From: Clostridia bacterium
GTDB lineage: Bacteria > Bacillota > Clostridia > Christensenellales > Aristaeellaceae
NCBI GenBank assembly: GCA_017447185.1
Contig: JAFSOC010000015.1
Coordinates: 120,672-184,671 of the forward strand
DNA: 64,000 nucleotides
Direction: 5' to 3'
In this document: positions 1,790-5,975 of the stretch, in pieces
Layout: each line of letters begins with the position of its first letter
How positions within the stretch are numbered: position 1 is the first letter of the stretch
Notes under the pieces: generated by a model
What the model was told of the DNA's origin: nothing
What the model saw: only the letters and a program-made list of their open reading frames with translations
Databases searched by the model: none
Made by a program: the position numbers and the translations under genes

Positions 1790-3376
1790 TCAGTTGGTAA
1801 AGAAAGACTCAATGCCGCGCAGCAGCTCGAATTCCCGGACATCCCGGCAGGTGGTATACATATAGCGGGTAATCACGTTGCCGGTGCGCCAGTAGAGGCA
1901 GATGAAAGGGCAGTCGACATAAAACTGATACTGGATATCCATCAGTTTCTGGCGGTAGTCCTCCTGGGTGGTCTGCTTGCGGAGGCTCTTGAACAGTTCA
2001 TCCATCTTGGAACTGGTATATTTGCAGTAATTGCCCGCCCGGTAATTGGTGCTCATGAGCATAAAACCGGGATCCGGGGTGACATCCATCTGGAAGGCGA
2101 CCAGCGCCAGGTCGAAGGAACCGCCGCGAAGCTTCTCCTGCAGACCGGTCATGGTCATGGCTGTGACACGGCACTCAATCCCCACTTCCGCCAGGGCAGC
2201 GGTGATAATATTCATCGCTTCCTCCCGGACATCGTTATCCGGTTCCTCATAATAATAAAAGCGAAGGGAAAGGTGTTTCAGGTCGCCGTTGGCGTCCGCC
2301 TTGTCCAGAATGCCGTTTTCATCAATATCTTCCCAGCCGGCTTCCGCCAGGAGGCGCTTCGCCTCCTCCACATCCTGGGTAAAGGAAGCGTCCAGGTTGG
2401 AATTATACATCCAGGTACCAGGATAGAAGGGGAAATTTGTGGGAACGGCTAGACCGAGATAGGCGGTCTGGATGATTTTGTTCTTGTCAATCAGGTTGCG
2501 GATGGCCTGCCGCACCTCCGGCGTAAGCTCATAGGACTTATTGTTCATATAAAGACATTCGAGCTGATTGGTGCGGTAGGACATGGTGAGGGAGTTGGCG
2601 CTGGTCTTATGCTGCGCGCCGGCAACGGAACGGGTGAAGCAGGCTTCCACCTGGGCGAATTCATAGCTTTCGACGACGGCACGGGAAGTGTTTTCAAACT
2701 GGAACATGATTTCACGTACCTGAGGTTTCGTCTTCCACCAGTTGGGGTTGGCGGAAAGCCACATCCGCTCGCCGGCGTGGAACTCCGTAATCACATACGG
2801 GCCGCTGCCGGGAGGGTTGTCCATAGACACATAAGCCGCGGGAACGACGGGAAAAGTCATCTGATACAGCAGGCCGTAATTCTGCCGGTCGCTGGTCGCC
2901 TTGACAACGACGGTATAATCATCCTTGTTGGTAATGGAGGCGACGAAACGTTTCAGGTTCTGGTAATACCCCTTGTCAACGATGGTTTCGTCGTTGGCTC
3001 TGGCAAGAATATATTCAGCGGATGCCACCACATCCTTCGCAGTCAGGGGCGTCCCGTCTGAAAAGCGGATATCCTGGCGCAGGTAGAAGGTCCAGGTTTT
3101 GCCGGAAGCGGATTCCTCCCAGCTTTCTGCGAGGCAGGGCTGGGGAAGATAATCATCGTCAATGGTTACAAGGGATTCATAAACGGCATGATACGCGGAA
3201 AGAATATCATACTCCACCGGCTCAAAGGGGCGGACCATCAGCGTTTTGGAGGACTGAATGGAAATGGTGATACTGCTGCCGAGCTCTGCGGCGAAAGCAT
3301 CAGGAGCCGGAAGCAGCAGGATCAGGATCAGCAGGAAGCTCAACAGGCGTGAAATATTTTTCCTGGTAGATTCCAT
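1790..3376 (-). CDS. ABC transporter substrate-binding protein, family 5 (peptide/dipeptide type), no permease nearby
   Basis: The product (528 residues) has the fold signatures of DppA/OppA-type extracellular solute-binding proteins: an early VYESL block, SWEESASGKTWTFYLR, and IRFSDGTPLTAKDV. Residues 1-29 are a Sec signal peptide with a strongly hydrophobic core and an AFA-AE cleavage site. There is no lipobox cysteine, so it does not look like the usual lipoprotein of a Gram-positive binding protein. No permease or ATPase gene is in the window, so its transporter and ligand are unknown. Its first 77 bases overlap the 3' end of the CoaE/transglycosylase gene in another frame; GGGAGGG lies about 12 bases before the chosen ATG. 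Murein peptides are a conceivable ligand only because of the neighbour. Confidence 0.85.
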   Translation of the reverse strand: MESTRKNISRLLSFLLILILLLPAPDAFAAELGSSITISIQSSKTLMVRPFEPVEYDILSAYHAVYESLVTIDDDYLPQPCLAESWEESASGKTWTFYLRQDIRFSDGTPLTAKDVVASAEYILARANDETIVDKGYYQNLKRFVASITNKDDYTVVVKATSDRQNYGLLYQMTFPVVPAAYVSMDNPPGSGPYVITEFHAGERMWLSANPNWWKTKPQVREIMFQFENTSRAVVESYEFAQVEACFTRSVAGAQHKTSANSLTMSYRTNQLECLYMNNKSYELTPEVRQAIRNLIDKNKIIQTAYLGLAVPTNFPFYPGTWMYNSNLDASFTQDVEEAKRLLAEAGWEDIDENGILDKADANGDLKHLSLRFYYYEEPDNDVREEAMNIITAALAEVGIECRVTAMTMTGLQEKLRGGSFDLALVAFQMDVTPDPGFMLMSTNYRAGNYCKYTSSKMDELFKSLRKQTTQEDYRQKLMDIQYQFYVDCPFICLYWRTGNVITRYMYTTCRDVREFELLRGIESFFTN

Positions 3377-4733
3377 AATCTCTCGTTACCCTCCCAACAT
3401 AGTTTTTTGTCGGCCCTTCCGGCAGGGAAGCCTGCGTCAGCGTGTAGCCATCTTCACTGAGGAGCGGATCGGAAAGCCAGACTTTTACCTGTCCCTGGCC
3501 GGCGTGATAGGCGGCGGTGACCGCCACCGGATCACCCCGGAAGAGACGGCTGAGATAATTCAGGTACCAGCAGCCAAACCGGATATTCGACTCCGGATCC
3601 AGCATGCGTTCAAAGGCATAGCCGCTGAGCTGCAGCTTGTGTGCGATCCATTCGGCCGTATCCGGCATCAGCTGCATCAGCCCGCGGGCACCCGCACCGG
3701 ATTCCGCCTTTGCATTGAAAGAGCTTTCATTACGGATGATCGCAGACACATAAGCAGGGGAAAGATTGTATTCCGCTGCATACTTTTCAATCAGCGGAAT
3801 ATAAGCTACCGGTAGTGGATACTGGCGGTCAATGCTTTTCTGTTCGGCAATATGCTTTTCCTCACAGGTGTGGAGGAAGGCATTCATCAGGATCAGTGCG
3901 GTGATGCCGACGGCCAGCAGGACGGATGCGGAGATCAGCGCGGTTTTCAGCCAGACCGGCATACGCCAGGCGGCTTTCCGGGGCTTCTGCCGGGAACGCG
4001 CGGATTCCGGACGGGACATGGTTACTGTTTCCTCCGCAGGAGGCGCAACCCGGACGGGGGCAGCGGGCGCTGCAGGCGCCGGGGTGGGAACTGAAGATTC
4101 ATAATTCCGCGCACGCCGCGGACGGGCGGCAGGTTCAGGAGCGTTCAGCTCCTCCGCAAGAAGGGTGGCAACCGTTGTGAAGGTCTGATCAACAGAGTCT
4201 GAATTGTCAATGACACGGGTGGAACGGGCAGCTTTCTCATCCGACGAAAGGACGGAACGGATGCGACTCATGGCTTCTTCCTGCGTGAATCCGTCGCGGG
4301 CCATCAGGCGGGAAAGCTGGAGATCAAGGGGTAGCCAGACCGTCCAGACTGCGTCGCAAAAGCGGTCGTATCCTTTTTCAAACAGCAGCGGCATATCCAG
4401 GAAGCAGAGCCTGGCGCCGGAAGCATGGGCGGCCTCAATCTGCTGCCGCGTGGCGGAGAGCAGGAAAGGCGCCATCACGTCATCCAGCTGCTGGCGGGCT
4501 GCCGGATCAGAAAAGACCAGGCGGCCGAGGCGTCGACGGTTGAGGGAACCGTCCTCATAAAGAATGTCGTCCCCAAAGACTTGCCGGATCTGTTGCAGGG
4601 ACGGACTGCCTGTGGCAGTCAGGTCCCTGGAAATCCGGTCTCCGTCCACCACGGGGAAACCGCAGGAGATCAGATAATTGCTGACGGTGGTCTTACCGCA
4701 GGCAATACTTCCGGTCAAACCGATGATACGCAT
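3300..4733 (-). CDS. coaE: Dephospho-CoA kinase fused to a membrane-anchored lytic transglycosylase
   Basis: One uninterrupted 477-codon frame encodes two enzymes. Residues 1-195 are dephospho-CoA kinase, the last step of CoA synthesis: P-loop LTGSIACGKTT (6-16), VVDGDRISRDL and DMPLLFE (113-119). Residues 197-260 are a Pro/Ala/Arg-rich linker. Residues 263-287 are a transmembrane helix. Residues 305-460 are a soluble lytic transglycosylase (SLT, peptidoglycan-cleaving) domain with catalytic Glu336 in RNESSF, then ARGLMQLMP, AYHAGQGQV and YVGRVTRDY. The positively charged linker predicts kinase inside and transglycosylase outside. CoaE is normally about 200 residues and stops where the linker begins. 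From memory, coaE and an SLT gene are neighbours in some Clostridia, so this may be a fusion of adjacent genes. A possible internal start at Met239 could also yield the anchored SLT alone. Confidence 0.9.
   Translation of the reverse strand: MRIIGLTGSIACGKTTVSNYLISCGFPVVDGDRISRDLTATGSPSLQQIRQVFGDDILYEDGSLNRRRLGRLVFSDPAARQQLDDVMAPFLLSATRQQIEAAHASGARLCFLDMPLLFEKGYDRFCDAVWTVWLPLDLQLSRLMARDGFTQEEAMSRIRSVLSSDEKAARSTRVIDNSDSVDQTFTTVATLLAEELNAPEPAARPRRARNYESSVPTPAPAAPAAPVRVAPPAEETVTMSRPESARSRQKPRKAAWRMPVWLKTALISASVLLAVGITALILMNAFLHTCEEKHIAEQKSIDRQYPLPVAYIPLIEKYAAEYNLSPAYVSAIIRNESSFNAKAESGAGARGLMQLMPDTAEWIAHKLQLSGYAFERMLDPESNIRFGCWYLNYLSRLFRGDPVAVTAAYHAGQGQVKVWLSDPLLSEDGYTLTQASLPEGPTKNYVGRVTRDYGIYQEKYFTPVELPADPDPAASGS
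4017..4035 (-). promoter_or_regulatory. Possible internal ribosome-binding site and start codon inside the CoaE/SLT fusion
   Basis: Within the linker, GGAGG is followed 11 bases later by the in-frame ATG for Met239. Translation from there would give a 239-residue protein with a basic cytoplasmic tail, one transmembrane helix and the complete transglycosylase domain. The spacing is slightly long. It is a sequence observation only; use is inferred. Confidence 0.4.
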
Positions 4734-4811: not shown

Positions 4812-5975
4812 TTACAGATTGGCGGAAAGAAGCTTTTTCTTCAGCTCGGCTTCCATGTTGTAGAGGGTCTTTTCCGCCTCGAGGCGCTTGGCGTGACCCT
4901 CAGACTGGATGGTCATCACTTCATTGATGGTATCGATCAGGTCCTGATTGGTCTGGACCAGGGTTTCAATATCGATGATGCCGCGTTCCGCTTCCTTGGC
5001 GGTCTGGATGGTGCCGATCTTGAGGGCTTCAGCGTTCTTGCGCAGGAGCTCGTTGGTCATATCGGTCACCGCGGTCTGCGCCTGCAGGGCCTGCTGGGAA
5101 TGATGCATACCGAGGGCAAGGACCATCTGGCTCTTCCAAAGGGGAAGGGTGTTTGACAGGGTGGACTGAATCCGCTCAACGAGCAGGCTGTCATTATTCT
5201 GGAGGAGGCGGATCTGGGGCGCCATCTGGATGGAGACCTGACGGGTCAGCTTCAGATCATAGAGCTTCTTCTCAAAACGGTCGCACTGGGCGGCAAGGTC
5301 GTTGGCCTTCTGGGCGTCCATGGCGTCGCCGGACTGGGCGGCTTTTTCCTGCAGCTCTTTTAGCTCGGTGTTGCGGACCTGTTCCAGTTTCTTGTCACCG
5401 GCAATGATATAGAGCGTCAACTGATGGAAATAATCACTGTTCTGATCGTAGAGACGGTCGAACATGGCCACGTCCTTCAGCAGCTGGGTCTGATAGCTTT
5501 CAAGCGAACCGGCAATGGTGTCCACATTGGCGGAAACCTTGTTATAACGGGCTTTCATGCGCGTGATTTTGTCCTCACCCTTCTGGAAAAGCTTCGCAAG
5601 GCCCTTGGGTTCCTCAGAATCCTTCTGGAAGCCTTTGAGCTCGGCCACCAGATTCACCAGCATGTTGCCGACTTCGCCGGTTTCCTGCGTCTTTACGGCG
5701 TCGAGGGCGGTCTGGGAGAAATCGGCAATCCGCTTCTGGGCGTCGGCACCGAAGAGCAGCACATGATCGGGATTGGTCACATCGACCTTTTTGATGAAAT
5801 CGTCAATCGCTTTCTTTTCCGCATCGGTCAGCTGGCTTTCATCCAACCGGGGCGCGGCTTCCGGCGCGGCAGCGGCAGCAGGGGACTGCTGGATGCTTTC
5901 CGTGGGAGCGGCAGCTTCAGGTTCCGGAGCGGAAGGAACGAGGGAAAGCTGAGGCATCAGATTGGGTTCGGACAT
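4812..5975 (-). CDS. telA: TelA/KlaA-family protein (toxic anion resistance family)
   Basis: The product (387 residues) is a cytoplasmic, largely helical protein of the TelA family, named for plasmid tellurite resistance but widespread in Bacillota and of unclear normal role. An Ala/Pro/Glu-rich tail of about 45 residues precedes the helical core, which contains family-like blocks such as KGLAKLFQKGEDKI and NTLPLWKSQMVLALG. No membrane segment is seen. It has a strong AAAGGAGG ribosome-binding site and lies 19 bases after the xpaC-like gene; the two families are often paired, which supports a shared function, probably envelope related. Resistance to tellurite should not be assumed. Confidence 0.9.
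   Translation of the reverse strand: MSEPNLMPQLSLVPSAPEPEAAAPTESIQQSPAAAAAPEAAPRLDESQLTDAEKKAIDDFIKKVDVTNPDHVLLFGADAQKRIADFSQTALDAVKTQETGEVGNMLVNLVAELKGFQKDSEEPKGLAKLFQKGEDKITRMKARYNKVSANVDTIAGSLESYQTQLLKDVAMFDRLYDQNSDYFHQLTLYIIAGDKKLEQVRNTELKELQEKAAQSGDAMDAQKANDLAAQCDRFEKKLYDLKLTRQVSIQMAPQIRLLQNNDSLLVERIQSTLSNTLPLWKSQMVLALGMHHSQQALQAQTAVTDMTNELLRKNAEALKIGTIQTAKEAERGIIDIETLVQTNQDLIDTINEVMTIQSEGHAKRLEAEKTLYNMEAELKKKLLSANL

Follow-up and report, generated by a model that had tools for sequence, protein, structure and literature searches.

A dephospho-CoA kinase–lytic transglycosylase gene fusion conserved in a genus of gut bacteria

The window, by which we mean the whole 64,000-nucleotide stretch of DNA that was analysed, carries on its minus strand a fused coaE-slt gene (3300..4733) that runs from an ATG at 4733 to a stop at 3300 and has 477 codons with no internal stop. 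The 477-residue product, with a calculated mass of 52.6 kDa when intact, is made up of a dephospho-CoA kinase (CoaE) domain, a linker that is predicted to be disordered, a single transmembrane helix and an SLT lytic transglycosylase domain, in this order. The neighbouring genes are on the same strand. Downstream, an SBP_bac_5 gene (1790..3376) starts before the fusion ends and overlaps its last 77 bases (3300-3376) in a different frame; 14 fused loci were examined for this, and the open frame of this gene overlaps the fusion in 13. Upstream, a telA-family gene assigned by Pfam (4812..5975) adjoins the fusion in 12 of these 14 loci, and the segment 4812-6897 holds this gene together with a Pfam match to Halogen_Hydrol.

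Both domains are readily recognized. The CoaE domain (residues 3-181; 4191..4727, minus strand) matches Pfam PF01121 at 1.2e-54 with 185.2 bits against a cut-off of 27, and the CoaE half also scores above the curated cut-off of TIGR00152 (163.6 against 65.55 bits). Its best sequence match in the PDB by phmmer is 2f6r, and a Foldseek search returned 2f6r, 1t3h and 4i1u as structural matches. The SLT domain (residues 314-421; 3471..3794, minus strand) matches PF01464 at 3.4e-28 with 98 bits against a cut-off of 21.3, and the Slt structures 5ohu and 1qte are its structural matches by Foldseek; phmmer likewise links this half to solved Slt structures. In the window genome, which is 88.66% complete, the two halves of the fusion are the sole CoaE match and the sole SLT match; CoaD is present, and a search of this genome for the archaeal-type dephospho-CoA kinase (DUF359) found none. 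A second CoaE could be missing from an assembly of this completeness. Each of six other genomes of the genus that are 95-99% complete has one CoaE above the cut-off, and one of the six (G091) has an additional weak match below it.

The fusion is shared by the whole genus as far as the locus could be found. Among 45 genomes of the same genus, 33 have a matching locus, and in all 33 the two domains lie in one frame with no stop between them. Each of the 12 genomes without a match is less than 90% complete, and a match was found in all 13 genomes with at least 90% completeness and no more than 5% contamination. The fused frame also appears in four genomes assembled into no more than two contigs each (G424, G449, G091 and G132). 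One genome (G446) is listed with a TGA inside the aligned span, but a stop-free frame of 498 codons spans both of its domains. The original prediction described a real in-frame fusion lacking the stop after CoaE and suggested looking for that stop in close relatives: it is absent from every genus genome with the locus, and the fusion, which was also found in four further genomes of the family, is no isolated case. It is a real fusion of two adjacent enzyme genes in each genome of the genus where the locus was found.

The region between the domains is organized in three parts. A Pro/Ala/Arg linker (residues 203-250; 3984..4127, minus strand) is predicted to be disordered, with pLDDT below 50 at residues 203-242 and 244-250 of the AlphaFold2 model. 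A basic juxtamembrane motif, [M/I/V]xRPxS...RKAxWxMPxWL (residues 239-262; 3948..4019, minus strand), is conserved in the alignments, and is followed by the transmembrane segment (best 19 residues, 265-283; 3885..3941, minus strand). This is the single hydrophobic segment in all 33 genus proteins, and its N-terminal flank is more positive than its C-terminal side in all of them; in the window protein, the net charge is +7 in the preceding 25 residues and -1 in the following 25. In the model, ten-residue mean pLDDT values are 88-98 for residues 1-200 and 311-460; the helix is also confident. The pTM is only 0.44, so the mutual placement of the CoaE and SLT halves is not predicted. The linkers of the genus vary greatly in length and sequence, with a frame that is always open. 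Linker dN/dS was 0.11-0.45 in seven of the nine closest genus pairs, 0 in another that has a single change, and had no usable dS in the last; these values come from few sites of a gapped protein alignment, and the nine pairs share members. In one pair of loci (L094 and L097), the linkers differ by a single synonymous change over about 32 sites, yet the flanking domains have a dS of 0.47-0.55, as if the linker had been exchanged through recombination.

The key residues of both domains are retained. Excerpts of PMC3019153 assign roles by mutation to Lys14, Asp32, Leu114 and Arg140 of the M. tuberculosis CoaE, with Gly8 and Thr7 likewise picked for mutation. From the alignment and the primer list in the same excerpts, the window equivalents are Lys14, Asp32, Leu116, Arg142, Gly8 and Thr7, and each is conserved in 33 of 33 genus members; among them are the P-loop Lys14 and the lid Arg142. 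On the SLT side, Glu336 (3726..3728, minus strand), which we take to be the catalytic acid, is Glu in all 126 distinct unfused loci, in all 33 genus members and in the four other fusions. Gly351-Gln354, Tyr409 and Gly412, which belong to the conserved GLMQ and AY.AG motifs of this family, are also present in 33 of 33 genus members. The residues at the expected catalytic places that are conserved in unfused relatives are thus kept in the fusion. The nine closest pairs within the genus, which overlap in membership and are not independent of one another, gave dN/dS values of 0.04-0.11 in the CoaE domain and 0.04-0.13 in the SLT domain. Several features that had been read from the window alone are borne out: intact key residues in both domains, with Glu336 on the SLT side, the motifs AYHAGQGQV (408-416) and YVGRVTRDY (445-453), and a single helix with a positive N-terminal side.

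We would like to point out one residue that does not fit a plain bifunctional story. Residue 161 of the CoaE half (4251..4253, minus strand) is Val in all 33 genus members. Among 135 distinct unfused loci, 134 have Gln at this place and the remaining one has Met; the four other fusions have Gln as well. The equivalent residue is also Gln in five aligned solved CoaE structures. Among the sampled loci, the substitution of Val for this near-universal Gln is specific to the genus, and it could alter CoaE activity. No role for Gln161 was found in passages of PMC3019153, PMC2765170 and PMC7438776. The unfused counts given for this residue and for Glu336 refer to distinct loci after removal of duplicate loci and repeated rows, and from L182 on include only the six loci of the contig scan that have the gene pair.

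Where else is the fusion found? Our family sample comprised 150 genomes, 145 of which have a CoaE match. All 13 loci with a frame of at least 340 codons were opened, on the assumption that shorter frames are too small for both domains, and loci interrupted by a contig end fall outside the fused/unfused judgement. Eleven of the 13 are fused and two unfused; the fusions occur in seven of seven cases in the window genus, three of five in genus g48 and one of five in genus g32. At the 46 family loci outside the window genus, slt is adjacent to coaE in 37, fused to it in four and absent from the stretch in five. Beyond the family, we opened every listed match with a frame of at least 377, and the apparent frames of about 400 there spanned a stop. 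No fusion was found among the matches listed in the order search (five long-frame loci outside the family, L059 and L072-L075), the class search (28 opened loci, L116-L143) or the phylum search (40 opened loci, L248-L287), which rejects the idea that it is widespread beyond the family. A contig scan, which may omit very near genomes, kept 80 loci, of which one is fused, 30 have both genes apart and 49 have one gene in the stretch. Among the sampled loci, the fusion was found only in this family.

The two genes look like an old neighbour pair. In class and phylum loci, selected on the basis of a query match or a long frame, coaE and slt have the same order and strand in 33 of 34 counted class loci, and lie near each other in the same order and strand in 39 of 40 opened phylum loci, with stop-to-stop gaps of up to about 400 bases. 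Among the class loci L109-L143, most of them picked for long frames, 26 of 33 adjacent pairs share a frame, and often just one stop codon separates the two open frames, an arrangement that would allow stop read-through. In C. difficile, coaE adjoins polA according to the passages of PMC7438776 on this gene.

How the two genes became one can be approached by comparison with the unfused loci. There, coaE and slt mostly lie side by side as separate genes, which agrees with the proposed origin of the fusion from two adjacent genes. The suggestion that loss of the stop alone produced it holds only in part. In all 11 unfused family loci that were inspected in detail, slt is out of frame with coaE, so that an indel was probably needed and is a better fit than mere stop loss; of the 37 adjacent unfused family pairs, 30 are out of frame and seven are in frame, and simple stop loss may have sufficed in some lineages with in-frame pairs. 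From these comparisons of reading frames, an indel at the overlap is probably the origin. The unfused slt proteins mostly have an N-terminal cytosolic tail that is Arg-rich and then Pro/Ala-rich, resembling the linker of the fusions. Long-standing adjacency together with gene overlap is sufficient to explain the fusion.

The number of fusion events is uncertain. A tree was built from 55 loci, among them 12 of the 33 genus members. Fitch counting puts the fused loci in four groups: one joins the genus to a single g48 genome (support 100), the two remaining fused g48 genomes stand apart, and a g32 genome makes up the last. With support of 100 in each case, the fused locus L067 has an unfused genome as its sister, and L068, also fused, falls within g32. 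The uncertainty comes from the weak nodes around L006, with support of 51 and 42, and from the small number of genus members in the tree; a single older fusion with later splits may be an alternative to about four separate events.

Taking these results together, we consider it probable, with good confidence, that the gene encodes one type II membrane protein, with a cytosolic CoaE domain and an external SLT domain, that arose from neighbouring genes merged in frame. The N-terminal CoaE domain would phosphorylate dephospho-CoA in the cytosol. It would be anchored to the membrane by the flexible Pro/Ala/Arg linker and the one helix, whose orientation is suggested by the positive-inside charge pattern, and the SLT domain would cut peptidoglycan outside the cell. 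In the ancestor, an indel at the overlap would probably have joined the frames of the neighbouring and mostly overlapping genes coaE and slt, in this order, and the cytosolic tail of the ancestral SLT protein would have become the linker. The protein presumably stays uncleaved. The benefit of the fusion, if any, is probably no more than a fixed one-to-one output of the two activities.

One alternative accepts the continuous frame but holds that the fusion is partial, with two products because SLT is also translated from a start inside the linker. In the window species such a start is possible at Met239 (4017..4019, minus strand), whose ATG has a GGAGG (4031-4035) 11 bases upstream with a duplex energy of -9.3, and a protein starting there would have a basic tail and a membrane anchor. 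At the position of Met239, 16 of the 33 genus members have ATG and two have GTG. Against this, neither codon is present in the other 15, so a start at this place is not conserved. Strong internal start sites occur in only three of the 33 genus linkers, the window among them, which is no more than in 100 synonymous-shuffle controls (mean of 2.24 of 33; 41 controls reach 3). Of 11 unfused relatives, on the other hand, 10 show a strong Shine-Dalgarno start for slt (-7 kcal/mol or better) no farther than about 40 bases from the coaE stop, and this start is gone from most of the genus. A conserved internal start across the genus is thus rejected. The strong starts in unfused relatives and the chance-level sites in the genus point to one large protein as the likely product, and we regard a generally two-product fusion as unlikely. 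In the window species, where the internal start is strong, and perhaps in some other members, an additional SLT-only product may be made.

A more ambitious version of the single-protein reading would have the fusion act as a bifunctional transmembrane enzyme that couples wall turnover to CoA supply and vice versa, with the change from Gln to Val tuning the coupling and repeated fusion reflecting selection rather than drift; this we hold to be somewhat less likely still. Slightly more doubtful again is the possibility that the fusion is translated whole and then cleaved in the linker to release separate CoaE and SLT proteins as in the relatives. The predicted disorder of the linker and its variable length and sequence speak for this, and its dN/dS below 1 is compatible with cleavage as well; however, no conserved cleavage motif was seen by eye in the linker alignment.

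It is also conceivable that the CoaE half is poor at making CoA and serves mainly as a cytosolic sensor or a folding aid for SLT. What speaks for this is Val161, which replaces in every genus member the Gln of nearly all distinct unfused loci and of the five solved CoaE structures. This half is, however, the only CoaE found in the genome, where the DUF359 enzyme was not found, and it keeps the P-loop Lys14, Asp32 and Arg142 under a low dN/dS, so that we think a degenerate CoaE improbable. That a sequencing or assembly artefact deleted a stop between two genes, as the 41 contigs and incomplete state of the window genome might raise, is practically out of the question, since 33 genus genomes, four of them in one- or two-contig assemblies, share the fused frame with differing linkers.

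If the single membrane protein that we favour stays uncleaved, the whole genus makes CoA by a membrane-anchored enzyme bearing an external wall-cutting domain. The fusion is a clean natural case of long-standing neighbours with no known functional link that merged into one protein, and it occurs in a genus of gut bacteria. Fused and unfused states coexist in one family, which lets the steps of the process be followed, from overlap and change of frame to loss of the internal start and the linker. We found no published work on a CoaE-SLT fusion in a search that was judged by titles and abstract openings and covered few subscription journals.

Several known arrangements resemble the fusion in part. 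The adjacent coaE-slt pairs of the same phylum share both domains, their order and their strand, and differ in that the genes are separate there, either divided by a stop or lying in different frames. COASY, the bifunctional coenzyme A synthase (2f6r, mouse), likewise has a CoaE-type domain within a bifunctional protein. Its partner domain is the preceding enzyme of the CoA pathway, whereas the partner in the window fusion is a wall enzyme. Against the NCBIfam model PRK03333, which covers CoaE-UPF0157 (GrpB) fusions, the window protein scores 137.1 bits, below the cut-off of 215, and it has no Pfam match to a UPF0157/GrpB domain. Such a fusion in mycobacteria also joins CoaE to an extra C-terminal domain, which is reported in excerpts of PMC2765170 to aid folding; that domain differs from SLT, and these excerpts do not mention a membrane helix.

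On the SLT side, Slt70/Slt (1qsa, 5ohu) has the catalytic fold and key residues in common with the SLT domain of the window protein. In Slt70, a large alpha-superhelical domain precedes the catalytic domain. The window protein lacks it and has in its place a kinase domain in the cytosol and an anchor in the membrane: ahead of SLT, the AlphaFold2 model contains CoaE, the low-confidence linker and one long helix, with no alpha-superhelical domain. The score of the window protein against NCBIfam PRK11619 is 94.8 bits, below the cut-off of 536.
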